This document shows, in pieces, positions 8,980 to 63,265 of a stretch of DNA of 64,000 nt (the first letter of the stretch is position 1; each line of letters starts with the position of its first letter). A program made the translations under genes and the position numbers. The stretch comes from Sipunculus nudus (Eukaryota > Annelida > Sipuncula > Golfingiida > Sipunculidae), in the NCBI GenBank assembly GCA_026874595.1, contig CM049310.1, positions 36,781,558-36,845,557 on the forward strand. Direction: 5' to 3'. Below the pieces are notes generated by a model, which saw only the letters and a list, made by a program, of their open reading frames with translations, did not search any database and was not told the origin of the DNA.

Positions 8980-10080
8980 CAAAATTATTTCGAGTAGGGA
9001 CCTTGACATTTGTAAATGTTAAAATTTGGCACGTTCATCCATCTTGGAAAGTTTGCTCGTTAATCAGACAGGTGGTGCCACCTACCTTTGTTTTTGTAAA
9101 ATAAATAAATGCCCTTTTCTCCCGAACTAATCTAAGTATTGGCCTGAAATTGTGCATGACCATAGCTCTTGGACTCCTCTGTCATGTATCAAGACTGGGG
9201 GCGCCATCTGCAATCATTTTCCCGTAGCATCCATCCGTACATGTGCTTATGATGAAAATTGCTCATATCTCAGGAGTCGATCAAAGTATTGGTCTGAGAT
9301 TTGGCATGTTCATCGATCTTGGAAAGTGTTCTCGTAAACTAGCTAAAATGCGCCACTCACCTTTCCGTTTTATAGTATACTTAAATGCCAGTTTCTCAGG
9401 AGTGATTTCCAGTATTGGCATGATATTGTGCATATCCCTAGATCTTCGACTCCTCCCTCTTATACTCACGACTAGTGGTACTATCTACAATTGTTTTCCC
9501 GTGGCGTCTATTCGTACATATGTGCTTAGGGTGAAAACTGCTTATATCTCAGGAGTGGGTCAAGGTATTGGTCTGAAATTTGGCATGTTCATCCATCTTA
9601 GAAAGCTTTCTCGTATGACAGACAAGTGGCACCACTCTGGTGAAAATTGCCCCTATCTCTGGAGTGGGTCTAGGTATTTTTCTTAAATTTGGCATTTTCA
9701 TCCATCATGGAATGTTGTCACGTAAACCAGATAAGTGTAGGCCACCTATCTTCTGGTTTTTCGTAGAATAAATTAATGCCCTTTTCTCAGGAGTGATTTT
9801 GCAGTATGAGCTTGAAATTGTGCGAATCCTTCTTATACCTAAGACTGGTGGTGCCATCTGCAATCGTTTTCCCATGGCGTCTATTCGTACATGTGCTTTG
9901 GGTGAAAACTGCTTATATCTTAGGAGTGGGTCAAGGTATTGGTCTGACATGTTCATCCAACGTGGAAAGTTTTCTCACAAACCAGACAGGTGGCACCACT
10001 TACCTTTTTAATTTTTTTGTTGAATAAATTAATGCCCATTTTTCAGGAGTGATTTGCAGTATTGGCCTCAGGTGGTGCAA
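8980..10080. repeat. Tandem array, unit about 280 bp
   Basis: The landmark TTTGGCAYGTTCATCCATCTTGG recurs at about 9015, 9298, 9580, 9686 (one short unit) and 9945. Each copy is followed by AAGTTTTCTCGTAAACCAGACAGGTGG-like sequence, a GCCACC motif, an AATTAATGCCCTTTTCTCAGGAGTG-like block and CCATCTGCAATCRTTTTCCC. About four to five diverged units are present. Confidence 0.7.
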
Positions 10081-20704: not shown

Positions 20705-20877
20705 TCAGGGCACGAGTCTATCCGCGATGAGAGAGTTTTGCGATCTTATATCACTATTTCTTGGAACTTTAAAACATAATGCTAGCGCTATTGTGTTGTT
20801 AGATTTGTACCACGTGCAATATGTGATGTCTATTTGTATTATGTGATGATTCTTGGTCCTAGAAGGCTTAGTGACAC
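20705..20877 (-). other. Possible terminal coding extension of exon 9
   Basis: After the Eph-like module the frame remains open for about 56 more codons to a TGA at 20707-20705. A stop-free run of this length is mildly unlikely by chance in such AT-rich DNA. The residues (TKPSRTKNHHIIQIDITYC and onward) match no domain I know and look like read-through intron. Either the gene ends here at 721 residues or it continues to exons not recognised further left. Confidence 0.3.
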
Positions 20878-21024
20878 ATGCCGTGGCCCCGGTGGCGGGG
20901 GCTGTAAACCCCAAGGGGCAAGGTAGGCAGTGAATCATCCCCATTTCCGGGGCATATGTGCCACTTGGGCAGATCTGACATATCTTTGTCCTGGCGTTCC
21001 ACATTGACCCTCGATCACATGGCA
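20878..21024 (-). CDS. Exon 9: Eph-receptor-like cysteine-rich module
   Basis: This exon encodes about residues 616-664. It reads LPCDRGSMWNARTKIC, QICPSGTYAPEMGM, then LPCPLGFTAPATGATAC. The pattern CxxCPxGTYxxxxGxxxCxxCPxGFTxxxTGA is a textbook GCC2/GCC3 module, and it continues directly from QNGFC at the end of exon 8. The acceptor CTCCAG|TG is strong (pyrimidine-rich, phase 1). The donor is uncertain. GCAT|GTGTCA at 20877 keeps the usual phase 1 but is a weak site. The frame also stays open to a TGA at 20707-20705, so this may be the last exon. Confidence 0.8.
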
Positions 21025-21886
21025 CTGGAGGAAAAAAAGTTCAATGAAAAGCTCGGTGAGAGAGAGAATTCATTTCCAGTTCATTTCAATGGTTTAGTTT
21101 TTATATGTGTAGACCACACAAACAAAATTCAACGATTTAGTGCAAACGGGCGATTCGTTGTTCTTACCAGTCGAGACATAATACGCTGACTTTTGCCAGA
21201 TGGCTTAGAAAAGTATAATATTGAATTCTGTCAATTCTTGAACTGATGTATATAATCAACACTAAACAAGCAACAAAATGAAGATTAAGTAAACCTATTC
21301 CATGTGCGTTTGTTGTGTAATGGAGGATTTGAGCCAGATCATAGACTTTGCCCTGATTTGATTGGCTGGTACACATGTGACATCATGGACTGAATATTCC
21401 CAACAACTCAGATCTAGTAATGCATGTTGTTTTATTTTTTTTTCTGGTGAAAATTTGGGACTGACAGTGGCAGAAATACTGTTCTTTTAATGAGATCTAG
21501 AATTTTTAGTCACAGGATATTTCCCAGTGTGTGACGTCACTGCCGAGTTGACAGTGCTCATAGATTTGCCAACAGTTTTGAACAAATCACGCAACCTCAT
21601 GTTTTTAGTGGACAAATAGATAGAAAACATGTTTTCCTCCTGGAATTGGGCTCATTTTATGTAAAATCTATATTATTATTTTTTTATATAGGGAATTATG
21701 TTATATGATAATATAATGAGATTTGGAATACTTTTGCTTGACCATAATGAAGGACTTCAACCTAGTAGAGTTAGTGTTTAGAACCTTAGAAATCTTCGAA
21801 GAACACAAAACAGCTTTCACTCCGTTCATATGCTATCCATAGTAAAAAAGGTGTTAAATATAAAGAACGGGAGGTTATATACTTAC
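21025..21886 (-). other. Intron between exons 8 and 9
   Basis: It runs from GTAAGT after exon 8 to the pyrimidine-rich CTCCAG before exon 9, about 860 bp. It contains no repeat boundary or other gene that I can recognise. Confidence 0.7.
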
Positions 21887-22555
21887 GACAGAATCCATTT
21901 TGATAGGCCATGCCAGCCCTGCAATATTGTTTAGCTTCACGGATTCTGATGTGGGGCGAGGGGAAGAAGGTACGTCCACCGACTGAGAGGGTTAATGTGC
22001 TAGTTACCTCTTCCCCAGACCCTGAACCCTCAGTATCGACATTCCCAGAACCCTCCGAAAGTGGATCTGGAGCAGGTGAGACCTGTTGTGACCTGGCAAG
22101 CACATTGGACTGGAACAAATTCTTCAACTTTTGTCCGGCCTGGTTTACAATGAAGGTCATGGCACTAATATATTTGTTTCTACATATGTTCCTGCAGGCG
22201 TCAGTATCAACAGGCGTCTTCCCACAATAGCGACTACAGCGGACATTGCGTAGCGTCACCGGCGGCACTTCAATTGTGAAGGAAATCTTTATGACTCTTT
22301 TCACCTGTACGTTGAGTGTACTTCTCTTCTTTCTCATGCTTTCCCAGTCATCAATGTCCTCCTCTCCCCCACACTCGATGCTGACCTGGTCAATATTACA
22401 GACTTGTCGACCGTTGAAGTTACAAAGTTTTCTTACCTGGAGCATTTCAACGAACTGTCGCCGTAACTCCTGACGCTGTGCGGTTGACAGGGTGACGCAC
22501 AAATCGTCGAAGTAAAACACCGCAGCCTCCATACTGACATCCTTTAAGTACTGTT
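21887..22555 (-). CDS. Exon 8: long exon, no recognised domain
   Basis: This 669-nt open exon covers about residues 393-615. The N-terminal half (about 75 residues) has four cysteines (DDLC, RKLC, RQVC, IEC) and a charged helix-like stretch. It ends at RKKR|S (residues 467-470), a furin-type site. The second half starts with an alternating hydrophobic segment (IKISFTIEVPP), then a tight four-cysteine cluster (VRCSRYC...DACRNIC). An acidic Ser-Gly linker follows (EGSGNVDTEGSGSGEE, residues 560-575), which could accept glycosaminoglycan chains. It finishes QYCRAGMAYQNGFC. The strand-then-cleavage layout faintly recalls SEA-type domains, but I see no GSVVV motif and make no assignment. The acceptor TTTCCAG|AA and the donor TGTC|GTAAGT are phase 1 and strong. 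Confidence 0.85.
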
Positions 22556-22654
22556 CTGGAAAATAAGTTCCACAATGAGATTTACCTGATATAACAATCA
22601 ACAAAACTATTTATTTGTACTAATTATAATATTAGGATCATCAAACGATGTGTT

Positions 22655-23870
22655 TTTTTCCTTGCACTTCAATATGAGTTAGAAAGGTAAAGTTTTTACA
22701 ATAAGGTTTTTTTTGTCATGACAAACATTACATTACATGGAATTAAAATAATACCTATTTAAGTCAAACCCAGTAAATATTTTTATCTTTGAGTCTGGTA
22801 CGCTTCATTCCAGGTGCTACAAAGACATTAAAACAGAACATTCTTATGAGCAGAATGACACGAAAACATAGACTGAAAGATGAAACAATTAGCAAAGAAG
22901 AAAAATCGTGCTTAATAGCAAATATTAACCTTACCAATACAAGTCGTTATTTCACGTTTTACCACCTCAGAGGACGACTTCCAACCTGTGGGACAAAACA
23001 TGTCAAACATCAGGAATCATGTCAACCAATGCATTAGTTATTCAGATTCTGCAGCTTTGGTATCAAATTTTTAATTGTTCTTGGTTACAATAACAAGCCA
23101 TGTTACTCAAATTAGTAGTGACTAATTTCAAGTGTCCAGATATAATTTTTTATGAATCTCAATGGAAGTTCAATTAGAAATTTCTAGGCCCAGCAGTTCC
23201 CATTTGTGCCCGTTAACGGACAACCGGGCGGACGACGGACAAAGAGTGATCTCTAAAAAAGTGTTATTCAGCCCTTTGGACTGTATTTTCGGCAATTGTG
23301 GATGTCATGTTTGATATTTTATGTTTCTCATTTTTTTCTTGTATCAGAGTCCGATTATTTTATGTGCTTGGTGGTAACTGACCAGTTTTCGGAAAGGGAG
23401 GTTAACTTACAAGGAGTCACTGTTTTGAAACTTGGACAAGGTAATCAACGTACACCCCTTTTAATTCCCAAGATTATATGTTTATAGAACAAGAATGAAA
23501 GCTCAAACGATACGGGTTTTATTCTTATTTGCACTTAAATATGAGTTACGAAGGATTTTTTTCTATGATAAAGTTATTGGAATTGCAGACATTACATTAC
23601 ATGGAATTAAATTGATACCTATTTAAGTCAAAACCAGTATAATGTTTAATAATATGGGCCTGGTACGCTTCATTCGAGCTGTTACAGAGACATTAAAAAA
23701 AACATTCATATGAGCAAAATGACGCGAAAACCTGGACTGAAAGATGCAACAATTAGCAAAGTAGAAAATATCGTGCTAAATGGCGAATATTAACCTTACC
23801 AATACAAGTCTTTAGTTCACGTTTTGCCACCTCAAGGGACCACTTCCAGCCTGTGTTAGGACCACACACC
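22655..23870. repeat. Intragenic duplication: 22655-23000 and 23525-23870
   Basis: Two direct copies of about 345 bp share intron sequence and the exon 7 donor. Shared landmarks are a 'CATTACATTACATGG' stretch, a GGTACGCTTCATTC stretch, a GACTGAAAGATG stretch and the ATATTAACCTTACC donor context. They differ by scattered substitutions and small indels, so the event is not recent. Between them lies repeat DNA (23041-23500) that itself matches 19480-20110. This suggests the copies were moved with, or recombined through, flanking repeats. Confidence 0.85.
22935..22985 (-). pseudogene. Partial duplicate of the exon 7 end (possible microexon)
   Basis: These 51 nt encode GWKSSSEVVKREITTC plus a split codon. 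They parallel the last 17 codons of exon 7 (GWKWSLEVAKRELKTC). The rest of the exon copy is missing and is replaced by dispersed-repeat sequence. By chance or selection the remnant is bounded by CCCACAG and ATTG|GTAAGG, both usable splice signals. Its phase is 1-1, so including it would insert 17 residues between exons 7 and 8 without a frameshift. Whether it is ever spliced in cannot be told from sequence. The simpler reading is a dead duplication product. Confidence 0.6.
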
Positions 23871-24009
23871 TCAACCACCTCGGGTGTCTCCATGTGATCG
23901 TAACCATAGTTACACTTAACTTGGCAACGCCGAGTATTTACAGCGGGAACATGAGTACACACAGCACCCCCATTGGCGGGAGTCGGAAAGTCAGGACACT
24001 TGATGTATT
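23800..24009 (-). CDS. Exon 7: divergent sushi-like module
   Basis: This 210-nt exon encodes about residues 323-392. It reads IKCPDFPTPANGGAVC, then TRRCQVKCNYGYDHM, PEVVEVCGPNTGWKW and a basic tail ending KTC. The KCPxxPxPxNG opening, CQVKCNYGY and the G-W-KW segment are sushi features. The spacing is stretched and six cysteines are present, as in the two-disulfide-plus-one variant. The acceptor CTCAG|AA and the donor ATTG|GTAAGG are phase 1. The 3' part of this exon and its following intron are duplicated at 22.65-23.0 kb. Confidence 0.87.
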
Positions 24010-24050
24010 CTGAGAATGGTTCAATATAGCAATCATTCACTCGGTCACTC

Positions 24051-24052
<2 letters not shown>

Positions 24053-24098
<46 letters not shown>
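24053..24098. repeat. (AT)n microsatellite in intron 6
   Basis: About 46 bp of pure AT dinucleotide, only 44 bp upstream of the exon 7 acceptor on the minus strand. Length changes here would alter the spacing near the branch point region. Confidence 0.95.
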
Positions 24099-24100
<2 letters not shown>

Positions 24101-24407
24101 AAATTATAAATGTGCTGGCTTAATAGAATTCTTCAAATGTCATTTACTTTATTACTTGGTAAGATCGGTTTGTCGGCTGCTCGCTGATTTACGATGCATA
24201 TCGCTCATGATCAGTTTCTATACGACAAGAATTTGATCAGTCTAGTGTGTCCCGGATTCCGTAAATTGTAATACTACTATACATATGTACACATAGATAA
24301 GTGAAGGAAATGATAGATAAAATATGTGCAACAAATGCAAATACTGTACAAGACATTCACAGTAAGACGCATGCTTACTCCAATGTGTGCACGGTAAGTC
24401 TTCATAC

Positions 24408-24536
24408 CTTCGCACCTCTTGTTGTTTTTGTTGTCTATTTTGAAGCCAGGAATGTTACACACACATCGATAGGAGCCGACAGTGTTCTCACACTTCTGTT
24501 CACAACCACCGTTTCCGCTTCCGCATTCGTTTACAT
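24408..24536 (-). CDS. Exon 6: calcium-binding EGF domain
   Basis: This 129-nt exon encodes about residues 280-322. It begins DVNECGSGNGGCEQKC, then ENTVGSYRCVC and NIPGFKIDN, and closes KRCE. The D-x-N-E-C start and the N-x-x-G-S-Y/F-x-C core are the calcium-binding and hydroxylation motifs of EGF_CA, with six cysteines in the usual order. It is flanked by ACTTCAG|AT and GAAG|GTATGA, both phase 1. This is the most clearly conserved module of the gene. Confidence 0.95.
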
Positions 24537-25632
24537 CTGAAGTGCACAAAACAGGTTTACAGCTGTCATTCCTTGTTCGCAACATTGCAATTTGCCAATT
24601 ACAAAGCGTGTTAAAGTAGGTAAGTCCAAAACTCGGTCATGACTAAGCTCATCTGCGCAGCTTATCTATTCCTTAGACATGTGGCCCTTGACCAGTGTTC
24701 TCTGGACCAGTATTTCCAACAGGAGCGTACATTAAGAAAGTGCTAAGCGATAAGACCCGATGTAATTACGACCACAGGCCCTTGAAATCAATATTATAAC
24801 ATGTCTAAACGACCCCTATATAGCCTTATGCTACACATAGCAATATAAAGACACAGGGTATGTAACGACTGACGGAGGACCCCGAGTGACCTGCTGAATG
24901 GACTATTAATTTCCAACCTACCGACGGCGTGGCACAAACTAATCTCTTGCATGAACATAAAATTGAACCAAATGGATCCGTCTGACACTAAACTAACGCG
25001 CGTTACGGTTCCTGATCGCGTTTGATTAGCTGTTTAATCATGCTGAGCGGACAGTGTTTGGCGGTGTTCTTCTACATGCAAGTCCTCGAGGCCCGAGCGC
25101 CTTCCGAGCATCATCGTGGAATTGTTTGTCATATCCGACCAATGAGACCACCGCCGATTTGTCGACTGATATTTTCATTTTATATTTTAAAAAATCACTT
25201 TCATGCTATAATTTGCTTAGCAATTACTTAGTGTCTGGTATTACAAGCAAAATAGGAAGTGGTGTCTGTTGGGGGTTGGGGTGGGGATGAGGGTGGGATG
25301 GCTCCCCTGCGTCACTTCCCTGGATACGCTCACGCACAAGACCAATTTTACAAAACCAATGTTCCTAATCCTTTCGCTCTAGGGTCAAGACATGGGTTGT
25401 TTAGTTGAGTGTAAGACAAGCGTGAAGAAGAGCATCTTAAGGCTGCATAATATATTCGTCGTACGTATTGTGACTTTTCCCAATATCAAATATGTACAGA
25501 GTTGTTCACCTAACACTGCACGTTCCACCACGAGAATCCTCTGTTCCATGATATGATACTTCATTTTTATATGTACATACATTGGCCTATATATAATTAA
25601 TTAATCCATGACGACAGGAAATATTTTCACAC
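24537..25632 (-). other. Intron between exons 5 and 6
   Basis: About 1.1 kb, from GTGTGA after exon 5 to ACTTCAG before exon 6. No internal gene or clear mobile element is visible. Confidence 0.6.
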
Positions 25633-25809
25633 CTGCACAGACCGGGTTTGAGCCTGACCATGTACCGTCCAGGTTGCACTTTCTGACCCCGTCTCCACTA
25701 GACCGGATGTACCCTTCATTGCATAAAATACTACAAGCGCTATCTACCGTCGTGTTGCACGTGCTCAAGTGACCATGTACGGGAGGCTTCAAAGACTTGC
25801 ATCTTATCT
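25633..25809 (-). CDS. Exon 5: sushi/CCP domain
   Basis: This 177-nt exon encodes about residues 221-279. It opens IRCKSLKPPVHGHLSTC, continues through SACSILCNEGYIRSSGDG and ends KCNLDGTWSGSNPVC. It has two extra cysteines (TC and SAC) beyond the canonical four, the variant with an additional disulfide seen in selectin and SVEP1-type sushi modules. The acceptor TTTAAAG|AG and the donor GCAG|GTGTGA are phase 1. The first codon is completed by C from exon 4 (CAG, Gln). Confidence 0.92.
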
Positions 25810-26471
25810 CTTTAAAATAAAACAGTATATATATAAGATGAAAAGCAAATTTGTAGTGACAAAGAAAAATATATCTGTAAGAAATATCACGAAAAATTAG
25901 GTGGACCATTGTGTTGAACCAGAATATGTAATATGCCTATATAGATGCCTCATCTAAACAAAAACTGGATTGTATAAATTTTATAGACTACATAAACCTC
26001 ATCCCATGTCGAGTTGCGATTACACTCGTATATCTTTACTTATACAGAGGCGGATCCAGGATTTAGGAAATGGGAAGGTCCTATCCATGGGGACTAATAA
26101 CAAAACCTAAAAAAAAAAATCCAATTATCCAGAAAGGAAGTGCTCGAGATCATAAAACTGATATAATACCCCGAAAAAGTTTGCTGCGGCTCAAATGGAG
26201 GATCCGGATCCGCAATTGTAATAACCCGTATAACTAAAAAAAAGTTAATATGGGTATAGAGCTGAGACCAAAATCAGAATCTTATTTCTTTTACTACATT
26301 TGCGTTACTGACGTTGTGGATGATATCAGCTTTTGTATTGTTCACATTTTAACATGGCGGCATACAAATACCATACTGATTTTTAAATTGTAATTATTCT
26401 GTGTTGTAATGTTATTCAATTTAACCGAACGTCTGGAGAAAATAAATGAAACGCTGCCCAAGCGTACGCAC

Positions 26472-26627
26472 GTATACACTTTCCGCCGAGGTTCCCTCGG
26501 AAACCTCTGTCACACACACATTGTTTGACAGTGGTACTTCCTGGTCCGGCCGTGTGTGAGTGAGCCTGGCATCGTGTACACGAGATGGCGCCACTGCTTC
26601 CACTCTTGTAATGGTTCACGGCACAAA
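26472..26627 (-). CDS. Exon 4: Eph-receptor-like cysteine-rich module (GCC2/GCC3)
   Basis: This 156-nt exon covers about residues 169-220. It reads CAVNHYKSGSSGAISCTRC, then a HSHTAGPGSTTVKQC segment and VCDRGFRGN. The spacing CxxC...HT..GSTxxxxCxCxxGF matches the cysteine-rich module first described in Eph receptors and found in many secreted mosaic proteins. The acceptor TTACAG|TT and the donor ATAC|GTGCGT are both phase 1. The donor is less canonical than the others, and a second GT five bases further along would break the phase. No kinase or transmembrane segment is linked to it, so it is not an Eph receptor. Confidence 0.82.
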
Positions 26628-28266
26628 CTGTAATGGATCAGTATATGAAATGTTTAAAATTGTAAAGTAAGATCCTAATAGTTGCTCCAAGTCACCTCTG
26701 TCACAACTTTATGTACAAAGTAGTAAGAAAATGTAAAGAGAATGTGGCTTTGTCAGTTGGACAGTGATGAGGAAAACTACATAATAAAAACGATTTATTA
26801 TTATACAGGCTCTTTGACTTCAGAAATAAAAAAAAAATATCATAACATGCCATTAATATGTATCCACCATGCCAGATCACTGCTCGGACCTTTCAGATGC
26901 AAAATTGTCTCATAATAATGCTTATACTAACCGAGTTCCGAATCATACCAGAACTGTTTAGGCCGAGTCCAGCAGATAAGACAACTCTGTCACACACTAT
27001 ATAATGATTGTATACATGGGTGAAATACCAATATTTCAGAATATAATAAGACAAAAAAAAACGAATAAGACTGTATATCAAGTAATATAAAAAAATACCA
27101 TATATACCAAGATCTAGCTCTGCATTTGGAGCGATATGTTAGTAAACATTTAAGTAAAAAGCCCTTGTAAACTAACATAAATTTTAATCCCTTTTTCCTA
27201 ATCCCTTTTTAAATTTCTTTAAATAAGAAGATTTGTACTGGACTTAGACATGGATGGTGTAGACACGACTAGCCATGAGAACCCGACTCAGCAGGCAATA
27301 ATAATTGAGCTGGTAATTAATGATGCATTCAAATGATTAGATTTTTTTCTGGTTTGGATAACGAAAATGTTACAAGAATCGAGAAGTTCTAGGCTGATTC
27401 TCATAAGAATTAAAATTTTTCATCGAAAGTCTTAGAGAGAAAAAAATGGTAAAATGTGGTGTAGATTTCCAAAGATCAGGATAATCAAGCGGTTTTTCAC
27501 ATTAAAAAAAAATGTACGAATTTCGAAAATCACTTGTCAAAATCTGGATATGTTTTGAGGATTGTCCTGATGCCTTATGAACAAAACCCTTAATTGTAAG
27601 AGTATCTAACACTTGTCACGATAACCATGTCTGCATAAATAATCTTAATTATCTTTACTTTATCGAAATAATCTTCTGAACAAGCAGAGTGTCTTGACGT
27701 ACTATCAGAAAAAAAATATCTGTATAGTATATCCCACCCTCCGAACGGGGGCATGATGATCCAATATATGAACACTTCTATGTAAAGGTGCCCATTCGCC
27801 TACCTTTTGAAAAGAATGTATGTGATTTCTGGCTTCCTCTGTGTATATATTAATGTTCTAAGGATAACTTTGATTGTGAAAAAAAATCTTAGAAGGCCTT
27901 CGTGAAGGATGTGACAACATGTTTATCAACAATGTGTTTGTAAACACAGCAAATGTTGACAAACGGGAAAAACATAACCTATGGTGGTAGGTTGCATAAA
28001 TGCGGAGGCAGAAAGGTCACTTGTTGCAAAACGCCATTTGCAAAGCTCTGGGTTATCTGACACTCTGCCAGATGGCCTTGATCTATTTATTTGGATTATT
28101 TTGGTGAGCCCCAAATAATAAAAACACGTTGATAAAAAACAAAATAAGCAGACTCTGTGCGGTGATACCCACGTTTTCTTACCTATTTTTTAAAGCTCCA
28201 AGGGATTACCTTTTGTTTATAAAGGTCAGATAGGTGATTTGGCCCCTTTAAGTAAATTTCACTGAC
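26628..28266 (-). other. Intron between exons 3 and 4
   Basis: About 1.6 kb of AT-rich DNA. Small open frames inside have no domain. No mobile element is recognised. Confidence 0.55.
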
Positions 28267-28440
28267 CATGACATGTAGGATTACTATCTGACCATCGCCC
28301 AGTAGATGAACAGGTAACCTTGGAGGTACCACGCATGAAGTGACCCGGGTGGCACAAGAATGTTACAGTACTGAGATATGTAAAAAAGCTGCCGACACGA
28401 CTTCCACCAGTCGGCCTCCCAGGGTCGCCGCATGAGACAG
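28267..28440 (-). CDS. Exon 3: sushi/CCP domain
   Basis: A single 174-nt exon encodes a complete complement-control module (about residues 111-168). It starts AVSCGDPGRPTGG and runs through the third cysteine in FLCHPGHFMRG and a VTCSSTGRWS segment to the closing NPTC. The four cysteines and the buried tryptophan sit where the family expects them. The acceptor is TTCCAG|CT and the donor CATG|GTCAGT, both phase 1. One exon per sushi module with 1-1 phases is the normal arrangement for this domain and allows modules to be shuffled or skipped in frame. Confidence 0.92.
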
Positions 28441-30027
28441 CTGGAACACAGAGAGAACGTAAGGGATTACACACAAATACAATAAAATAATTACAAATAT
28501 CGTTACAGGAAAACAGTTTTAAAGCACATAATTCTTATGGACGAAATATTATAGCATTTTTCAATTTTATTGTTCCTTATTCAAAGGGTCCACTGAGGCT
28601 GCATTATTGAATTCAAAACTTATATATTAACACTAGTGTTAATAGGCTGCATAGACGAGCCCTCGGCTAACACTGCACGTTGTCACATTTGCAATGTGAT
28701 GTGGATTACAGGCCAATAATATATAATATTTGTACAGAAGTTTGCACGAATACTTTTTTTAAGTACATACACATTTGCAATAATATGTGAATAATATGTA
28801 AAAAATATGTCAATTTAAACACTCCACGAGTCTCTAGCTAGTCTGATTACAGCAAGACACCATGTCGCGGTGGACTTATCCTTGCAATGTGCCAGAAACG
28901 TTGTTATCATGCAGCCCAACGAAAGCGGGTGTCGCATGTTTAAAAATGTGGGCTGAATGCACAATGCGATACCACGCTCTCATTGGTCTGATTACAATTC
29001 TTTGCTCTGTGCGCACCCTGGTGTTCTTACCCACAAAATCTTGCGATACAAAGCAGCGTTTACATGAAAAGAACATTTCATTATATTTCTGTTGAGTTAA
29101 TGAAATCAAATCAAATATTTACAAACATTTAACAGTTTAAGCTAGTATTCTATATGTGCGTATGTGGTATGTATATGCAGTATGTGTGCGCATTCAGCCA
29201 GTAAACGGACGACTGTGATTCCATTCATACGTATGCATATGCAACACGTACGTATGCAGCGAAAGCGGGCCCAAAGTAAAAAGCTGCATGCACGGGTAGA
29301 GAATACCCTATCAGCCAGAGTAATACCCTATGTAACCCATTATCAAGACAGATGGGGTTTCACAGTTTATTTCAGAGAACTGAACTTGTGAGAACGGTTA
29401 AAAATAAATTAGAATGACACTTTGCAAAAGACAGCATTCCAGCCTCCATATCTTGTTTTTAAACTAGCTTGGTGTTTCTCAGGGAAACAAGGAATTTGTG
29501 AAGCAATGTTTAAAATCCAACTGTCCACAAAACCTTTGAAGAACTGAATGATCAGCCAGTTTTTTTAAATTTCATATGGAGTGGTATATTATTTTTTTTA
29601 ATTTATTAACTATCCGGGCACCTATTCCTTGGAAACTTAATAGGGCTCATACGGCATGGAATTTTGTCAACTAATGTTTTGGACTCACAAAGGTAAAGGA
29701 CAGTCAATGAACCCACTACTGACAATCTGAAACAGTTGCAGTGAATAATACATCAACCAGTCAGCGTAGCAGAATTTAAGCAAATCAGTTTATAATTAAT
29801 AAACGAACTACCTTTTATGTGTAGCTGACGACAAAAGCTTTTTAATCTTTTTACAATTTTAATTTTTTTTCCAACGAAGTGAAATGAGTTATTTTCAATA
29901 TTCGTTCATTCTAGGCAAAGGAAACAAAGCCTAGATATTTCATATATATCTATATGAAAAAGATAAGGCAGACACTGACTGTACTGACAACATGATTCGT
30001 GAAAGCCAGGCATTCAGGTACATTCAC
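28441..30027 (-). other. Intron between exons 2 and 3
   Basis: About 1.6 kb. It contains a run of ATACGTATGCATATGC-like alternating words around 29160-29260 and nothing recognisable as coding. Confidence 0.55.
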
Positions 30028-30236
30028 CTCCAAAAGGAGTCCCGATATTTTCACAGGATCCTGTACAGCTGCGACTTTTCGAATTTCCTCCGGGACAAAC
30101 GTTCCTTTTCGCCCAGATATAGCATTCTCCTATGGGCTGTTTGCTGCGTCTGGCTGTCTTATAGCCGTTGTGGCCACATTGACCTGAACAGGAGCTCCAA
30201 CTTGACCATCGTCCCCAGCAGTGGTCAGGGCAAAAC
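30028..30236 (-). CDS. Exon 2: thrombospondin type 1 domain
   Basis: This exon encodes about residues 41-110 of the model. It begins FCPDHCWGRWSSWSSCSG, with the tryptophan ladder WxxWSSWSxC and then CGxxGYKTARR, the signature of a TSP1 repeat. Further cysteines follow (GEC, NVCPGG, RSC, GSC), giving nine in all across this exon. TSP1 domains bind glycosaminoglycans and matrix proteins and are often C-mannosylated on WxxW. The acceptor is CAG at 30237-30239 and the donor is GGAG|GTGAAT. A TGA lies in frame a few codons before the acceptor, so the frame does not extend upstream. The polypyrimidine tract is weak; an alternative AG three bases upstream would add one codon without changing the frame. 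Confidence 0.88.
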
Positions 30237-30239
30237 CTG

Positions 30240-32215
30240 CTAAGTCATCCAAATAGTAATTGCCACTGCACATTACGGTGTTAGAATACTACTATATCTG
30301 TGTTAGTTTAACAATACTGATTTAAATGATAGAAATAAAATAGACAACAAAAAGTGAACATTAACAGACTGTGTTATTACGATGTCTAGCGACATAAATG
30401 ATCGGTCCTGGTAAATGGGAAAATGACTGCGTAATTTGTGCACAAGAGATGGGTATGGCGTGAGAAAAGACATACCGAAACATCCAAGGTTTTCACGTTA
30501 GAGATCAAACGGTTTAAGACGCCTGCGTGGTATGATGTAAGGTCACTAATCATGATAGAGAACTACGGTGAATAGTGGTATATATTAGGGTCTCCCACCC
30601 AAATATCGATATATAAGTTCTGAAGACGTTGAACTATTCACTTCTATGCACATCTAAAGAAAAAGCATATTTTCACGACTCAGTAATTGATAACGAAGAC
30701 TTTTGTCATCACAAAATTGCCAAAATATCACTTCGGTAAACAAAATTACTCGGAAACGGTGTTGACTCACAATAAGCGTAGAGAAAGCCACAGTATGACC
30801 GAAGAAGATTATAAAAAGTGGAAGGTAACACGAAGTGTTGCTTCTCTCTGGCACCTCGGCAGCTGTGCTAGTATACACACCAGTATCCGTTAAAGGTTTA
30901 ATCCTAAAACTTACTCATATCCCTGCCATTCATCTTTATATTTGTCTATTATCTAATTATGCGTATGAAAAGTAAAACACTCCAGCCCATTACTGTTGCT
31001 ATAATTATTACTACAAGTAACTAAGCTTATGTTACACATTATTTTATAATTAAAATTACGAAAAATGGTCACCCTTCTTTGTTCAAACTGGGGACCCATT
31101 GATCTCTACGCTCAGCTGAGCCAGAACATCCATATTTTTCATGTTCATGAGCCTTTGAAGCGTCGATATCAATTTATATGGTGTGTTTTAATGAATAAAA
31201 GGTCAACCAGAAGAAACGGCAGAGGTATCATACAAGGTTGAGTGGAAGAAAAAAAAAACACTTTTATAACAAAGGAGTTATATCAGAGACATCTCAAAAC
31301 TAGAGTTCTTCATCACCGGGCTATCGCAAGGGAAGCCTCTCCATCGAGACTTCGAAAATTAGATCAACGGTAAACCACCTGTGAATATCAATCTGACCTA
31401 AAAGTGGTTTGAAAGATCATCCGATCTGGTGGTTGATTGTGCTTGAACTCTTGTTGGTGATAATATATGTGGTAAAATGACATCTTGTCTTTGCTGACGT
31501 GTTTGGATTTTGATCGGTGGCCATTTTGGCCTGCCTCTACATGTTATAAATACATTGATATAAAGAAAATAAATGAAAGACTTAAGATATTTTCTAAATT
31601 TAATACACGTTGGGTATGGCAATTGGTCCCTTTTAAATGCACACTCATATATAGGCCCCTATCGACTTTACAGGACCATCAAAAACATATCATTGTGAGC
31701 TGAAACTCTAGGTAACCAATTATTTCCCCATCACCAAACTACCAAAAACTCCACACGATTGGTAGTACATCAGTTTGTTTATTTGATATACGACGACTTC
31801 TAACCGTTTTAGATTGCAGTAAATGAACAACAGGGAACAAACCGTTCGAGGTATAATCTGTGCTTAGCCTCTCTTCTCCTCTGTTCATCTCTCCATCTCT
31901 CAGTTTTCCTTTCTTCAGCGCCGAGAATTCCCAAGCCTACGCCTAGGCCTGTGCTCAAAGGTAGCAGGAACAAAAATCGCTTCTCCCGATGCTCGATGAG
32001 CGCTGTAGCTGTCGAAGCCTCGATGAACACTTGCCGTGACCGTGAACTTGTAACTGCACCTGTATTTCTTCTTAAAAAAAACAAAACACAATATCCCTTC
32101 CTGTATTTTACAGGTTTCCATAAAGTACACCTATTAAATGGCCGCCATGTGTTACCCACTTTTAATTATATCTGTTCGTGTGAGCACATCAGAAGAATAC
32201 AAATGGTAGCAACAT
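30240..32215. other. Intronic interval, nothing recognised
   Basis: No domain-bearing frame is seen. A minus-strand open frame at 31809-32159 is long for the region but rich in Arg/Glu/Leu from repetitive TCTCTTCTCCTCTG-type sequence. I do not call it a gene. Confidence 0.35.
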
Positions 32216-32420
32216 GAAAGTTTGTGATACCAAAATATAAACCAAAAAAATTGCAGCATTTGTTAAAAATATGGCTTGGTCGCCATATTGAATTTAAAAA
32301 AGACCGCCAGTTTTAATCCGCATTTGCTTATATCGGGATTTGTGAGCATGGGATTCGATTTTGAATTGGTAGCAACATCTATGTTGTGATACCAGCGAAT
32401 AAATTAAAGCCATGCATGGC
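32216..32420. repeat. Dispersed repeat, 'GGCTTGGTCGCCATA' family
   Basis: It contains ATGGCTTGGTCGCCATATTG, AATCCGCATTTGCTTATATC, GATTTGTGAGCATGGGAT and TACCAGCGAATA-type words. These recur in the same order at 37600-37760 and in inverse at 35000-35330 and 36840-37220. Confidence 0.7.
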
Positions 32421-32520
32421 CAAAGCCAAAACCATGCAAATGATTAACCATATGAAATTAAATGTAAATAATTTCAACCAAACATTTCCTGTGAGGAGAC
32501 ATTGTGTAAATCCTTGAAAG

Positions 32521-33290
32521 GTCTTGATCACGTGTAACATGGAACTATGCTCTGAACAATTACTACTTCAAAGACTTCTGTCACGCCAGCCTACCTTGTA
32601 TTTCGTTTATTGTGGAGTGACAATTCAGGATAATTTTCTTTTCAAGATTTCATACTGCAAAGATGCTTCAAAGATGTTTATCAGGCCACGTTGCTGGTTA
32701 TGTATTATTGGGGTATTGGCGGATTGTAGCTAGGGCAACTACTCATTCCTAATAATGCAGTAGCAACAGCAACAGATGCAATTACTGCAACGTTGTTAAG
32801 GAGACCATAAACTAACTGACTACTCACTATACACTGTATGCAAAAGGCATATCAGCTTTTGTCCCTAGTCCTCTTCACAAAACCGTAATGACTCTTGGTC
32901 CTGCCATGTACGATAGGGCATTGAAGCTGCAGTCTACAGCAAGGAAAGGCTACCTAATGACAGTTGGTGAGCTTTTGCTACACTGCACTCTGTCGCAAAG
33001 TATATAGATGACAGCTCTCTTGGATCCAACAACATTGGAGCTGGTTATTTTTTCCCAGCGAGCGACACTTCGCCAAATCAGCACTGGAAAATGGTACTAT
33101 CATGGTACAAAGAAAAATGTGACCAACACAATGGCCTGTTATGGCCTCATCTTTCAGAATCATTGCAGTAATAAAACTTGGAAACAATTATCGAAAATGC
33201 CATCCCCAAAAGGTCTCGAGATGAGCTTATGTGACAAGTGTACTCAAAGGAGTAACAACATTCTTCGGAGGTGAGTTCCCCGTTATATGT
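32521..33290 (+). pseudogene. Possible decayed coding fragment, unknown
   Basis: Adjacent plus-strand frames give protein-like stretches (VMTLGPAMYDRALKLQS, ARKGYLMTVGELLL, then from 33008 DPTTLELVIFSQRATLRQ to KGLEMSLCDKCTQRS), separated by stops. The composition is more protein-like than its surroundings, but no domain is recognisable. It may be a transposase or other mobile-element remnant. I do not assign a function. Confidence 0.2.
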
Positions 33291-34999
33291 TTCTAAGACC
33301 TTGGGCACGGCATGATGTCGTTTCAGTATTATGGAGCATTAGGAGAGTTCACTTGATTTGCTTCACTTGAGCAAGCAGGCAGCAATAAGGTAGAATAGAA
33401 TAGTAGCATCTACAGCAGATACATGGAAAAGATAAGGTAAGGACATTCAGTATGTGCAAAAAGAAGACGCATAGCAAAGTTGGTTAAGAAAAGATCGACA
33501 ATTTTTGGCAGGATTGCGTGTAGTCCATGGTCTGTTCCAGTCTTTGAGTGAGACAATAGGTAGAAACTGTTTTTCTGTTGTCCTAAAGGTACCTCTTCTC
33601 CTGCAATGGTCTTCTTATTCCAAGTGACAAGAATGCCTTTGTCAAAGTTACTAAAGAGTACAGCACAGACTCTTCAGGTAAATCAGATTCAAGTGCATCA
33701 CCAAAGAACAGAAACGATAAACTATGTGCATTACGGAAGCCACAGAAATTGTCAAAGCTATCAAGAAAGTTTAAATAATAAATGACTACTGCCCTGCTTT
33801 TATGACCCCCTTTGTTCGAACGTCCATAAAACCATAACTTGGTATGGTGAAGGACGAGTGATCTTTGATAGAAATACTGAGAATTTTTAAAGTTTTTAAA
33901 GTTTTCTCACATGGTAAAAGGACATGGAATCGACCATGTTAGGTTTGGTATTAACGACTCGCGTAACATCTAACTGGATCCTAAAAATCTCACAATAATG
34001 CAAATGTTGATCTTGCAGAATATTTTGGAAAAACTCTATACTTCAGGAGTATGCTGCGTAGTTTTCGTGTATGGAAACTACTTGTATTGAATAAAACATG
34101 GTTTTTGATTGTAAAATATTCAGGAGCCCTCGCAACAGGAGACAGACCATGATGCCTAATGCGTTGAAACTTACAGAGATGTCACACATATAGATATTTA
34201 TTTACCAACTGTAGATATATATTTTAAGCTTGTTTTTAAAACATTTAATTGAAGGCAAATTCCTTTTCATCATCAGATAAGAAATGCGCGAAGTGCACAT
34301 TTGATATACTAATAGAATGCACAACCATTAAACGTAGGAGAATTTAGGTTCTGCTAGATTACCTTGCTTTAATTTGCATTTAATGGGGTGGCCAATCTTC
34401 CGTTATGTCCAAGAATGGGTGATTAAAGCATTATATAAGCTTTGAAACAAGTAATCACTTAGTTAATATTAAAAAAAAAGGAGTGAGCGAAGATGAAGCC
34501 TTGGTGCATCAAACCCACACATTCGGAGGGCATGTTTGTCCCTTATCACTAACTGGCAAATGGTAAAAGGAGACAGGACCGAAAATTCCTCATCTTATTG
34601 ACAATGGATGGGAGGAAATCAATTGATACGATGGATCAATTTCTCGCCAGACATTTCTTAAACTACCTGCACCACATGCAGGCAGTTGCTAAACTGTATC
34701 AGTTTGGAGGCTTGATGAATGTAATTGTAATTGCTCCTCTCATAGGGATAATTTGCAATACATAGCGCGTGTTTCGATGAATCACTTTTGTTGAAATTAT
34801 TAAAATTCATTTGAATTTTAATAATTTATTTTTAAAGTGACAAAAACAGGGAACAAATACATGTATACATGATATTAAACCTCATCAGGAACATTGCACG
34901 ATTCAAAGACTTCTATACTACCATTCTCATACGCCTCTTTGGGACTTAAGTGCAGAGATATCAGCAAAGAACATTAAATATGGCACCATTCGTAAAATA
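33291..34999. other. Intronic interval, nothing recognised
   Basis: No gene, RNA or clear repeat structure was found across 1.7 kb. One short inverted repeat (AAAATTCATTTGAATTTT) lies at 34801-34818. Confidence 0.35.
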
Positions 35000-35333
35000 A
35001 ACATGATGCAAAGCCAAAATTAAAAATAAGCACGGTATAGGGTTAAACGAAATCATAAACATGGTATCACAAACACGAGTATTAACAATGTATTTATTCT
35101 TCTACATAGTTCATAGATATAAGCCAAAGTGTGTTAAACATCGCGGCCATTTTGAAATTCAATATGGGGACCAAGCCAAACTTGTAACAAGTACTGCAAT
35201 GGCTTTGATTTTTATCTTGGTGTCACAAACATTCATGTTGCTACAATCTGTATTCTTCTACATTGCACACAAAAACAGATATATAAGTAAAAGTGTGGTA
35301 AAAATAGCGGCCATTTTGAAATTCAATATGGCG
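35000..35333. repeat. Dispersed repeat (inverse orientation), left part
   Basis: It contains two successive GCGGCCATTTTGAAATTCAATATGG words (35140-35166 and 35308-35331) with ATGGTATCACAAACACGAG-like spacers. This is the inverse of the family at 32216 and 37600. The second copy is interrupted at ATATGGCG by the hAT-like insertion. Confidence 0.7.
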
Positions 35334-36105
35334 CAGAGTTGGGTCCGACTACAATGATTGTACTCGAGTATGAAAACTGAGTACTTATAACGTACTCGAG
35401 TACAAGTACAAGTATTTTAGCAATTTTTTTATGACAGTACTCCAGTACGAGTACCGAGCACTCCAAATGTACTCACGAGTAATGTAATGAGTACTTTTAG
35501 CGGCTAAGCCTAAGATGTGGAGTGAAAATAAATCAGTGTCTTCTGTTTGATGTATAATAATATTATAATTATTGAAGCTTATGAAATGTCTACTCGTTTT
35601 GTTTATTTTACATGTAACTAATAAAAAAAATAAGAGCCACAAGAGCTGCTTCAGTTTAAAATAAGAATATTTATTTTGAAAAATCTGATAATTATTGTGA
35701 GGTTTTATTATCAATCCAAAATTACTGAGAAAAAAATATAAATACTTGTGTGGAATATCATTGTTATAATTAAAAATTACACACCCACGCTTATATTTTA
35801 ATAAATAAAAGCTTAAATATAGATTCCCCTGTGAATATTCGACTGACATTCTAAACACACATACATTGATTAGTTGTCAATGTTCAGTTCTGCAATTATA
35901 GTCTTATTGAATTTATGATAAGTAAAAATATTATCACATCAATAACAGATATTAAAAAAGACTTCATTTAAAAATTACATAACGCAAGCCCCTTATGATT
36001 CCCTTATCCTAATACATCCCTTTTAGTTTAGTTATGCCAATTTTAATTAGACGTTTCTATGTGTTAATTTAAAGTTATATATACATACATCTTCTTGGTA
36101 TTCCT

Positions 36106-36110
<5 letters not shown>

Positions 36111-36176
<66 letters not shown>
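36111..36176. repeat. (TA)n-(GA)n compound microsatellite
   Basis: A TA run (36111-36142) passes directly into a GA run (36142-36176). Confidence 0.95.
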
Positions 36177-36661
36177 TGTTGTGATAGAGTACTTGACAGC
36201 TAGAGCCACTGACTATGAGTGTGACTGTGTGTACCAGGAGCAAGTCTCACGCATTATGTAACAAGTAACAACCCTGAGTGGTGCAGAGGGCATAGAACAC
36301 AAGCAGGAATACAGAAGGTCTTGTGATTGGCATTAGCCTGATAAAGTCTATTATAACTGGTCAGCCAGCAGTGATTAGGGGTTTCATCTTTATCTTAGTA
36401 ATCTCTCTGCCACCAACAACCCAACAACCATACTTTAAACCTATAACTGAGTGTGCAACCCTTATTGGGATGCAGGTTTCATCTTACACAGCAGGCCAGG
36501 GCTCTAATACAAACATGTTTGTCTTTGGTTTCAACTTCTCAGCTTTTGAATGGGTGAGCAGCTTGGTTATCTGCTACTGGTTACCAATCTTGTGTCAATG
36601 CAATGTGCATGAAATTAGTGTTTGATTCCCCCCCCCCCCATCCAACAATGTTAACAATAAA

Positions 36662-36689
36662 TATGTATGTATGTATGTATGTATGTATC
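36662..36689. repeat. (ATGT)n microsatellite
   Basis: About seven units of ATGT, just after a C-homopolymer at about 36629. Confidence 0.9.
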
Positions 36690-36831
36690 ATTTGTGTATA
36701 TTTGTGTGCAAATTCTGAAGTACTCAATAGTACTCATGAAAGTACTCGTTTTTTTATGAGTACTTACATAGTACTTGAGTACTAGTATGAGTACTTAGAT
36801 CATTTTGAAGAAAGTACTCGAATACGATATG

Positions 36832-37790
36832 ATATGGCAGCCTAACCCTAATTGTAGCAATTATGGCAATGGCATAAATGGAATCAGTGGTATCGCAAAC
36901 TTGGATGGTGCTAATATTTGTATTCATCTACGGTGCTCACAAGAACAGACAAAAGCATAAGTGTGTTAAAAATGAAATTCAATAAGGCGGCCTAACCCAA
37001 TATGTAGCAATTAAGGCAATGGCTAACTTGAATACCTTGTATCGTAAACACGGATATTGCTACCATTTGTATTACTCTACAGTGCTCATACATTAAGATA
37101 AAAGGCAAAATATAAGGGAAATGGCGGCCATTTTGAAATATAAAATGGTGGCTGAAGACGCGGATGAAAAAAAATACACCTGATATTTTTGGGATCAGGA
37201 CACCCATATTGACAAAGTTAGGCAATAAAATCCATTTTGGTGTGACTATCCAGCTGGATCAAAATATCTGACACAGCATACTATACCAATAAAAGAAACT
37301 GATGTTGCCTCTCAAACGTCCATGCAAGGTCATTAACGTTCGAGAGGGTAAACATGCCGAAAAGGTTAATTTTTCTTCTAACCTTGTTTCAGGGTCTCAA
37401 GTTTTTTTCTTTGTGGATTTTCTTTGCCCACAAATCAGGGGTGATAAATGTTTAGGTTCACCCTTGGGCAATTTTAGCTAATTAGCATAAAACAAAATGA
37501 CCGCCAAAATAATAAGAAAATAGCTAAATTATCATAATTACCTTAACATTTGACATAGAGGGTCAACCTATACATGGATTCTTGGGTCATTTGTTACAAG
37601 TATGGCTTGGTCGCCATACTGAATTTCAAAATGGCCGCCATTTTTAATCCGCATTTGCTTATATCTGGATTTGTGAGCATGGGATACGATTTTAAATTGA
37701 TAACAACATCTATGATCTGATTCCAGCGAATACATTAAAGGCATGACCATACTAGTTTTCAAATCATTCTTTACCTACTAAAATATAGCT
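36832..37790. repeat. Dispersed repeat copies, right part
   Basis: From 36839 the GCAGCCTAACCC sequence continues the repeat interrupted at 35333. Another copy follows at 36960-37220 (GGCGGCCTAACCCA, GTAGCAATTAAGGCAATGG). A plus-oriented copy lies at 37600-37760. Non-coding. Confidence 0.6.
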
Positions 37791-38179
37791 GTCCGGCTCA
37801 GATAAGAAATGTGTAGGATCCTCCGGCTTGACCTGTATGGTATTTCTACCTGTGACTAGCTGAAGTATGCACCACTTGAATATTATGGTTGGCATAGATA
37901 GCGCTAACGTGTACTCTAGTGAGTGTTTACTCTAATGTTCGGCATAGCGTATTTACATGTAATTCTAGCGCTTGTTGTAGGAACGAAATTCATGCCATTG
38001 CTAATGTATCAAGCTGCATCAATGTATCGCGTAAAAGGAAAAGTGTTTATATTCGTTATGCTCTCTGACTCGTATTGTTGTCACAACAGGAAGACACCAG
38101 AAGCCCAGTTGAATATATCTAATATGTTGTTTTCTTCACATTAAGGGCTCATACTTTCAGACATAATTATCATTCAGCA

Positions 38180-39180
38180 GTAATTATGTCCCAGTGGAGT
38201 CTAACATGAATGCTGTGGAGTGCATGTCCATCCTGGAGGAGCTTGTCAGCGAACCAACCCTCAAAGAGTTCAAGGAAGCACCGAAGTCACTTGCTCCCGG
38301 AAAGGCGCCAGGGGCAGACAGCATCCCCGCCGAGGTCCACAAGTGCTGTACCAACGCTGCAATCCAAGAGCTGCACGACATCCTCTGTCTTTGCTTGAGG
38401 GAAGATGAAGTACCACACGACTTGAAGGATTCCAGCATAGTCATACTGTATAAAAACAAAGGTGACAAGAGCGATTGTAACAACTATCGCGGCATTCTCC
38501 TCCGCAGCATCACTGGGAAGCTGTTCGCCCGGGTCGCATTGAAAAGGTTTCAGATTTTAGCAGAAGAGTCTACCCAGAATCCCAGTGTGACGTCCGCTCG
38601 AAAAGGTCTTCTGTCGACATGGTCTTTTCTGTCAGGTAACTATAGGAGAAATGCAAAGACATCCACTGTTCATGGCCTTCATAGACCTGTTAAAAGCGTT
38701 CGACTTGATGAGTAGGGGCGGTCTCTTCAAGATCGTTCCTAAGATCGGATGTCCTCCCAAGCTTCTCAGCATTATAAAGTCCTTCCATGACGACATGAAA
38801 GGTACCGTGGTCTGCGACAGCGCGACATAAGAAGCCTTTGCATCCAAAGTGATATAAACAAGGCTGCGTCCTTGCACCGACCCTGTTCGGCATCTTCTTT
38901 GCTGTCCTGCTGAAGGTAGGTATCTACCACTGCACCAGTTCAGACGGGAAACTCTTCAACCCCTCCAGGTGAAGTGTGTGCGGGAACTCCTCTTTGCAGG
39001 CGATGCAGCAGTCCACTAAAGACCTGCAGAAGCTCATGTCCCAATTCAGTGCAGCCTCTCAGGCCTTTGGACTCACGATCAGCCGGAAGATAACGCAAGT
39101 AATTGGGCAGGACGTGGACACTCCACTGGACAGCTCGGAGTCGTGCATGAATCCATACTCTTTATGTATTCCGTGATCTG
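38180..39180 (+). mobile_element. LINE reverse transcriptase remnant
   Basis: The longest frame (38194-38715) gives PGKAPGADSIPAEV, LHDILCLCLREDEVP, VILYKNKGDKSDCNNYRGI and GKLFARVALKRFQ, typical of the RT of I/Jockey-superfamily LINEs. After a frameshift near 38580 it continues with AFIDLLKAFDLM (motif A), QGCVLAPTLFGIFF after another shift (motif B), ELLFAGDAA near 38980-39010 (degenerate catalytic loop) and LTISRKITQVIGQDV. Its GC content is higher than its surroundings. It lies in intron 1 antisense to the host gene. Confidence 0.8.
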
Positions 39181-39748
39181 ATCGTTCAGGTCAGACAATT
39201 TTATAATCTATACATTTTCTATATCCATATATAGTTCAGGATAAATATAAAGTTTAGGATATTGAATGTATAGTGCCTCTACTTTAATGCTGTTAAAGAT
39301 TATAGCTTTTAGGGTGACAATGGTATGTATTGTTGGCTGGGAGAAAAGTCAAAACAAAACGCCATCCTTGTGCATATATTTCCCTTTAACAATTTAAAAC
39401 GCAAGCTGATGAAAAAGTATTATTTTGTGGTGCAAAAAATTATAAAAAGCGTAATACGTTCAATGTAAGGTGTCAAATCAAAGGCGATACCAATCGTCGG
39501 TGCACAGGCACAGAAAAAGCTCTATAGGATTTGCAGTCCATAAATATCACAACAACACATGCGATCCTCCTTTGAACAAAACATAACTACATTCACAAGA
39601 TTTAAAAGCATAATTCCTGCTAATTTTTTTTAGAAACTATCATAGTTTTCATGAATATGCAAGTAAAATAAACATTCTTAAATTGAAGATCTTACACAAA
39701 GGACTATATGGTGTAAAAGTATTCTGTTGAATGGAATCTTTATATATA

Positions 39749-39809
<61 letters not shown>

Positions 39810-41040
39810 TAAAACGCATTAAATCACATATGTATACCCGCATATCCATTGCTGTGTTTGTGCGATGAGTAAAGCCACACAGAAAATTGCTTCATTCTGT
39901 GAGGTAATCTGTTCGCTGCATGCACCTCTACAGTATATACACATGTGGGCTTGCACATATGCAGCAGACTCTTGAACATATATGTGCTACAATCAATCCC
40001 TTATTCGTGCATGGCTGTTAACATGTATCAGTTCAAGTTGCACACCTGCAGATTCATAAAGCCGAACCTTTAATCTCAGCAGTAATGGCTGCATGTCCTG
40101 TTTTGATTGTTATCATCGCCCTTGCAGTTGCGAAAAGGCAAATGCGTTGTGATGCCTCATATCTGTTATTATTACACTAATACTAGTACATTAGTGTTGC
40201 CTTTGAGTGTACAATGTACTATAATATACTTTGTTCACACACTCACACACACACACATACAAACACACTCACATATATATATGTTTTTTTATATCCTGTT
40301 CATATTTCAAATTTTAAAAGAATAAACATGTTAGAAATGGACCTGTTTTTCTGTTTCATAAGAGAGAAGAGCCATTTAAATTATTTATATTAAACTCTTT
40401 GCATAGGGTTTCATATCCAAGAAACCCCCTGTAAAAGGGTTAATTAAGATCACCCGGAAGGGTTTTTTATATGCAAAAGGTTTTTTTTACAAAAAGGTTG
40501 TTTTTAAAAAAAACCTAAAAGGGTTTCTGTATAGGGACACTCAGAAAACCCTGTTTAAACCCTTAATAAACTCTTCCCTTTTAACAGTTAAGATGCACGA
40601 ATGGACGCCACGCGAGCTTTTATAAGTGCCGACTACGACCTTTTGCTATCCAAGATGTGTTGAAATGCAATAGACCTATACATCAAACCAGTCATGACAT
40701 GCGAGCATGGATGTATGTCTTCCTTTCCACTTGAGTTTCAGTATAACAGACGGTAAAGTATCTAGGTCAGAGAACCATAAATCAGTTAAATTATCTGCTT
40801 CTGTATATCAGTATCCTAAATGTTGCCATATCACGAGTGCGACCCAGGAATGACCATGGTGACTTTAGGAAAGGGTAAAACCTTTAAATAAAGGTAGCTC
40901 ACTTGGTATGAAGCACTCAGGGGATACAGATAACTGCTGAAAGGTAATATTCATTTGTTATAAGCAAACACCTCTACTATTATGACTAGCTATATAATGC
41001 CAAACAAATTTATTAGGAAAACTATATTACAAATGTTAAC
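39181..41040. other. Intronic interval with microsatellites
   Basis: A (TA)n run lies at 39751-39804 and a short (CA)n stretch at about 40235-40262. At 40400-40580 there is a knot of AAAGGGTTT / AAACCCTTT words in both orientations, able to form imperfect hairpins. No coding evidence. Confidence 0.45.
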
Positions 41041-41044
41041 TTAC

Positions 41045-41166
41045 TGGGTAATGGCAGAATCCTTCATTTGACTATCAGCAGCAAATACATCAACAGCGGC
41101 AAGGCTCAGTAACAGCAACATGCTGTATAAAACTTTGCCGTAGCAGGGTAGTCTCTGCACAGCCAT
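41045..41166 (-). CDS. Exon 1: signal peptide
   Basis: This exon begins at the ATG (41166-41164) and encodes 40 codons plus two bases. A basic N-terminus (MAVQRLPCYGK) is followed by a hydrophobic core (SMLLLLSLAAV) and a small-residue cleavage region (DVFAADS). Cleavage probably falls near residue 29 or 30. The exon ends CCCA|GTAAGT, a consensus donor, in phase 2. The next coding exon found on this strand, the TSP1 exon, accepts phase 2 (CA + G = Gln), which links them although the intron is 10.8 kb. The frame is too short to stand out as an ORF; it is recognised from the signal peptide, donor and TATA box together. Confidence 0.78.
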
Positions 41167-62848: not shown

Positions 62849-63265
62849 CTAGAGAACGACTCGGCTTCAAAATCTGCTGCCCATAATGCACCGGGGCTTC
62901 TCAATACAGCGTAGGTATAAATGTAGTGCAGAGGGTGATGTAGTCCGTTCAAATGGAGGAATTGTTTCAAAGCAAAATAACATGAAGATGGGTGTGTGTT
63001 AGAGACTTTATGGAATAAGTAGTATTTTGTAAGCAAGCACATGTGAATGCAAACAGGTGTTTGCTTGAAATGTAACGTATTTTTATTTTAAAGTTCGACA
63101 GGTACGTACAATAAAGGCCATAGTACTTTCATGTTCTGATATTAATCAAATAGCAGTCTGTTGAATATTTATCTAAACCTGGATCATAAGTAATCTGGCA
63201 CACAATGTTTATATGACCTCAGTCCTCAAAAATGCATAGCAAGCTTGAAGAGCAGTTATGACGAC

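Follow-up and report, generated by a model that had tools for sequence, protein, structure and literature searches.

The window analysed here is a stretch of 64,000 nucleotides from Sipunculus nudus (GenBank assembly GCA_026874595.1, contig CM049310.1, positions 36,781,558 to 36,845,557), covering 36.78-36.85 Mb of contig C5 in the 1.43-Gb genome. On its minus strand, from position 41166 to 20705, lie nine exons with splice signals, which join into 2199 nucleotides with one open frame and encode a protein of 732 amino acids plus a stop codon, with zero internal stops. A preliminary description of the window had proposed that these exons join in phase into a mosaic of extracellular modules, and this was borne out by the single 732-codon frame. 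Exons 3-8 (174, 156, 177, 129, 210 and 699 nucleotides, all multiples of three) are in phase 1 at both ends and are bordered by AG and GT.

The protein begins with the start codon and a signal peptide in exon 1 (41166-41045; all nine exons are on the minus strand), the latter recognised by visual judgement and not by a predictor; this exon ends in phase 2. A TSP1-type module follows in exon 2 (30239-30028), then sushi 1 in exon 3 (28440-28267; Pfam Sushi, expectation value (E) 2.4e-9), Eph-like module 1 in exon 4 (26627-26472; Ephrin_rec_like, E = 8.8e-6), sushi 2 in exon 5 (25809-25633; Sushi, E = 3.2e-9) and a calcium-binding EGF module in exon 6 (24536-24408; EGF_CA, E = 1.2e-7). Exon 7 (24009-23800) encodes sushi 3, which is of the kind that precedes Eph-like exons in polydom-like genes of the same genome. 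Exon 8 (22585-21887) encodes a new region, discussed below as a SEA-like domain, with a furin-type site RKKR|S at residues 478-481 of the protein. Exon 9 (21024-20705) holds Eph-like module 2 (Ephrin_rec_like, E = 4.6e-10), a tail of 56 residues and the stop codon.

A check with domain profiles had been suggested in the preliminary description, and in a Pfam scan of the full protein it supported five of the modules (Sushi twice, Ephrin_rec_like twice, EGF_CA), whereas the TSP_1 match of exon 2 (E = 0.24) fell below the cut-off and the third sushi had no Pfam match; nor did the new region. The TSP_1 cut-off was passed by two of the four paralog TSP1 exons scanned, those of paralogs g2 and g3, and not by those of g4 (partial) and a sister copy. 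Exon 2 is called TSP1-type because the g2 and g3 exons, which match it at E = 2e-10 and 1e-7, pass this cut-off. Enzyme modules were absent from the Pfam matches of the protein, which comprise extracellular binding-type modules only; this fits the earlier suggestion of a secreted molecule of the matrix, adhesion or recognition type that has no VWA, pentraxin, CUB or kinase module.

The weakest join of the gene model is intron 1, which separates the signal peptide from the TSP1-type exon by 10.8 kb. The signal-peptide exon has four matches in the genome, at E = 3e-18 (itself), 2.7e-8, 1.38 and 1.43, the last two being weak when taken alone. All four, the exon itself included, lie 6-22 kb upstream of a TSP1 exon of the family on the same strand, so the join is supported as far as DNA can support it. 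Intron 1 also contains broken plus-strand frames (38167-39176) that by eye resemble the reverse transcriptase of a long interspersed nuclear element; two pieces of them gave no Pfam match at E 0.01. Intron 7, at about 22936-22989 on the minus strand, holds an additional short stretch similar to the C-terminal 18 residues of sushi 3 (72% identity, E = 2e-4), perhaps a partial duplicate of the sushi 3 exon.

Searches of the genome, run with single proteins as queries, gave 17 matches to the new-region exon, 19 to the TSP1 exon and 21 to the sushi 3 exon, counting the window's own copies. Matches on the same strand and separated by less than 26 kb (our own choice of limit) were grouped, with each TSP1 match opening a new group, and this gave 32 groups, 15 of which contain both TSP1 and the SEA-like region. 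At these 15 loci TSP1, sushi 3 and the new region follow one another in that order on one strand, and an Eph-like exon comes next at 14 of them. For the Eph-like exons 26 of 84 matches were used (all 22 on C5, one on C7 and three on C16), the 58 on C2, C4, C8, C11, C12 and C14 being left out. Five of the loci lie at about 27 Mb of C5, four at 36.8-36.9 Mb, four at 50.3-50.5 Mb, one at 52.6 Mb and one on C16; thus 13 of the 15 fall into three arrays of a single chromosome. Two exons of the C16 copy each carry an in-frame stop. In the 50.26-Mb copy the new-region match opens with a stop, which was taken to precede the exon and was trimmed. With strand and order shared by 15 loci, the arrangement is beyond chance. 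The preliminary description had seen a mosaic with an unusual module order; it is not a one-off, as there are at least 15 co-linear copies, which shows that the odd order is the stable architecture of an expanded family and not a chance mosaic.

Further genes of the same module order occur on both strands at 36.78-37.045 Mb, with extra sushi modules and, in many, a second Eph-like module ahead of the EGF. Five of these paralogs (g2, g3, g4, g6 and g7) have two additional EGF-type exons after the last Eph-like exon. Those of g2 reach into the window, outside the nine-exon gene and on its minus strand: an EGF exon at 63924-64000, running past the window end to about 64181, and after it an EGF-like exon at 63259-63414. 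At all 12 paralog module ends checked, of 13 listed, a GT in phase 1 is found no more than five bases past the end of the module; some of these ends also have GTs in other phases nearby. In a tree built from the SEA-like domain three groups are separated, namely the copies at 36.8-37.04 Mb (support 1.0), those at 27 Mb (0.99), and the window copy with those at 50-52 Mb (0.81); the position of the window copy within the last group has a support of 0.01. A sister copy at 36.743-36.747 Mb contains TSP1, sushi, Eph-like and last Eph-like modules, and none of the remaining modules was found in the 4 kb inspected.

Other traces of the family, and repeats near it, were also detected. SEA-like exon copies bearing stops, which are probable pseudogenes, are found at C7:27166421-27166952, C16:11909247 and C16:16309690. 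On the plus strand of the window, two weak sushi 3 matches, at about 9197-9325 (E = 8e-4) and about 9838-9918 (E = 0.036), are perhaps remnants of another family copy. The window also contains two mutually similar tandem arrays with a unit of about 340 bp (17926-19133 and 54270-55589). In the joined cluster, positions 94.8-104 kb (mostly locus L029) are long tandem repeats that are open in several frames on both strands and sit between family genes.

The alignment of the new region leaves out two of the 17 places (L014 and L017) because of stops, and among 15 copies ten columns are invariant, six of which are cysteines. A dibasic site is kept in every aligned copy, with K-R-[S/G] in 18 of 18 and R-x-K-R in 15 of 18; the two stop-bearing copies outside the alignment read KKS in one and KRS in the other. 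The ratio of non-synonymous to synonymous substitution rates (dN/dS) of the exon could be computed for 37 of 66 pairs (29 were saturated) and ranged from 0.10 to 0.48; where dS was below 1, in 16 pairs, it was 0.25-0.48. Between the nine-exon gene and its subfamily-A paralogs it was 0.10-0.34. The new region is under purifying selection.

No significant relative of the new region was found by Pfam, PDB sequence or Foldseek searches. The window's own domain was modelled with a predicted local distance difference test score (pLDDT) of 71.6, its dibasic site lying in a low-confidence loop. The shorter domain of paralog g3 gave a better model (pLDDT 88.8, predicted template modelling score 0.82), in which strands at residues 8-19, 55-72, 75-90 and 154-158 and helices at 27-43 and 111-142 form a predicted beta-alpha-beta-beta-alpha-beta fold. 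The g3 site RRKKR|G (residues 69-74) falls at the turn between strand two (55-72) and strand three (75-90) of this model. The Foldseek matches include CutA1, GlnK and two chains of the small ribosomal subunit (probability 0.97 and 0.95), which we take to be bS6. CutA1, GlnK and bS6 have ferredoxin-like folds, a label absent from the Foldseek listing. SEA domains are described as ferredoxin-like sandwiches that are cleaved in the loop between beta2 and beta3, after which the pieces stay associated; cleavage by furin is described for Notch-2 and, by mapping, for human GPR126 (PMC6954182). Because the predicted strand order and the dibasic beta2-beta3 site match those of SEA domains, we regard a SEA-like domain as the best reading of the new region, though neither Pfam nor Foldseek names the region as SEA.

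The preliminary description had named no protein that has this module order and lacks VWA, pentraxin, CUB and kinase parts. Among the open-licence papers listed in searches for related descriptions, no title or abstract reports the order. Its last part resembles a polydom-type cassette. A profile of sushi 3 was run on 5685 open frames from a 264-kb stretch and 12 other loci, and its best matches outside the C5 family (L048, E = 2.4e-9; L047, E = 1.1e-5) are both in polydom-like genes, while the best of the ordinary sushi exons in the same set reached 1.1e-3. From this likeness we assign sushi 3, the new region and the following Eph-like module to a polydom-type cassette. One polydom/SVEP1-like gene, at about 5.92-5.94 Mb of C4, combines on a single strand two HYR modules, a sushi that Pfam did not recognise, an EGF and three Eph-like exons. 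A second polydom-like stretch, at about 92.1 Mb of C4, comprises a sushi bearing a CGPNT motif, an exon that includes RRKRS, and an Eph-like exon. A stretch of human SVEP1, approximate as a query, yielded no alignment. HYR modules occur at four or more places in the genome, and none on C5 is among the matches listed. We read the family as a TSP1-headed variant of the polydom type without vWFA, HYR or pentraxin.

Taken together, we favour the reading, with a probability of about 0.62, that the nine exons are one gene for a secreted, polydom-related mosaic protein, a member of an expanded family, which is nicked by a proprotein convertase within a SEA-like clamp and so made of two chains. During secretion a convertase would cleave the beta2-beta3 hairpin just behind RKKR, leaving a chain of about 450 residues with TSP1, three sushi, Eph-like and EGF modules and one of about 250 residues with the second Eph-like module. 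The two chains would be clamped by a shared beta-sheet and could come apart under force or through a ligand. The N-terminal arm may bind partners in the matrix or on the cell surface, with the C-terminal Eph-like part (together with the EGFs in some paralogs) serving as a putative anchor. The product probably acts in the matrix or in recognition as two chains nicked by furin; we infer both the cleavage and the function. More tentatively, and with less than even odds, the undefined region between sushi and Eph-like modules in polydom-type proteins might be such a furin-nicked SEA-like clamp. Polydom and the TSP1-headed family would then both be two-chain proteins separable by force or ligand, the clamp having been joined to TSP1 in this animal and multiplied in arrays to yield a diversified set for adhesion or recognition. 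As the family offers many natural variants of a polydom-like cassette, in which the hairpin can be predicted and its dibasic site is conserved, cleavage and chain association are directly testable.

Several results weigh against the favoured reading. SEA was not matched in Pfam scans of 15 family members and the full protein, and no SEA structure was among the 50 Foldseek matches listed for each model. For both models Foldseek returned nothing at E <= 0.001, and the template modelling (TM) scores of the listed matches were low. The SEA-like region is too diverged from those of the polydom-like genes for a significant match, so its link to polydom rests on position, cysteines and the dibasic site, the last in one gene of two. 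The gene model itself carries a caveat in exon 9, where 56 residues (20705-20870) extend beyond the last module cysteine. The open frames of all seven subfamily-A copies of this exon that were compared stop 3-12 residues past that cysteine, and either stop loss or a missed intron could account for the long tail.

Two alternatives concern the gene model. The exons might be split over two or more genes, or belong to a larger gene extending beyond 20705-41166, as the 10.8-kb first intron and the two extra EGF exons past the second Eph-like module in g2, g3, g4, g6 and g7 would allow. This is very improbable given that the order is kept at 15 loci, that the signal-peptide exon is in place in four of four and that the subfamily-A frames end so soon after the last cysteine. 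Furthermore, none of the minus-strand frames in positions 1-20700 with at least six cysteines in 60 residues appeared module-like by eye, no profile scan having been made of that stretch. The chance that the copy is a decaying pseudogene is slighter still: the tail continues oddly past the point where the frames of its relatives end, but all nine exons are open with splice signals and dN/dS against the subfamily-A paralogs is low. The open frame and purifying selection rule against it.

The other two alternatives share the gene model and differ in function. A shell or extracellular matrix protein, like the SVEP1-like proteins reported in mollusc shells, is unlikely yet deserves consideration, as SVEP is given as a common shell matrix protein in Mollusca in a land-snail study (PMC6368272) and the Pfam matches are to extracellular binding-type modules with no enzyme. 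Against it, the two snail proteins described in that paper have sushi without VWA or EGF. We consider it slightly less likely that the family serves lineage-specific immune recognition, with sushi/TSP1/Eph proteins that bind microbes having been diversified by tandem duplication. Tandem arrays with members on both strands, a varying number of sushi modules, a sister copy in which some modules were not seen and the stop-bearing copies on C7 and C16 would all suit such a role, whereas purifying selection on the SEA-like exon speaks against it.

Compared with known systems, the nine-exon protein resembles the mollusc SVEP1-like shell proteins in being a secreted, sushi-containing, putative matrix protein, and differs in its TSP1-Eph-SEA order, which is unmentioned where PMC6368272 describes them. 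The short Polydom-like proteins of the sea anemone Nematostella (EGF-Sushi-HYR-TKE, some with TSR or Ig added) are similarly an expanded group without vWFA and pentraxin, with added end domains such as TSR (PMC12549020). Judged by these descriptions they are set apart by their Sushi-HYR-TKE core, as the nine-exon protein has no HYR. With the furin-cut SEA domains of Notch-2 and human GPR126 the new region shares a strand-helix order of the ferredoxin-like kind and, in the predicted beta2-beta3 hairpin, a dibasic site, and it differs from them in the negative Pfam and Foldseek results, in its extra conserved cysteines and in belonging to a secreted instead of a membrane protein. Polydom/SVEP1, which is described as binding Tie1 and integrin alpha9beta1 (PMC10281526) and has been reported as a PEAR1 ligand (PMC9932102), is likewise secreted and has sushi, then an undefined region, then Eph-like modules, an arrangement found in exons 7-9. 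Its N-terminal vWFA, its HYR and its central pentraxin are all absent from the Pfam matches of the nine-exon protein, which has instead an N-terminal TSP1 and an EGF ahead of the cassette, and one Eph-like module after it, where the C4 gene has three Eph-like exons. On secretion, Polydom is split into parts of 115 kD and 270 kD, a cut that PMC10281526 describes, where it treats it, by fragment sizes only; the putative counterpart in the nine-exon protein is the conserved dibasic site itself.

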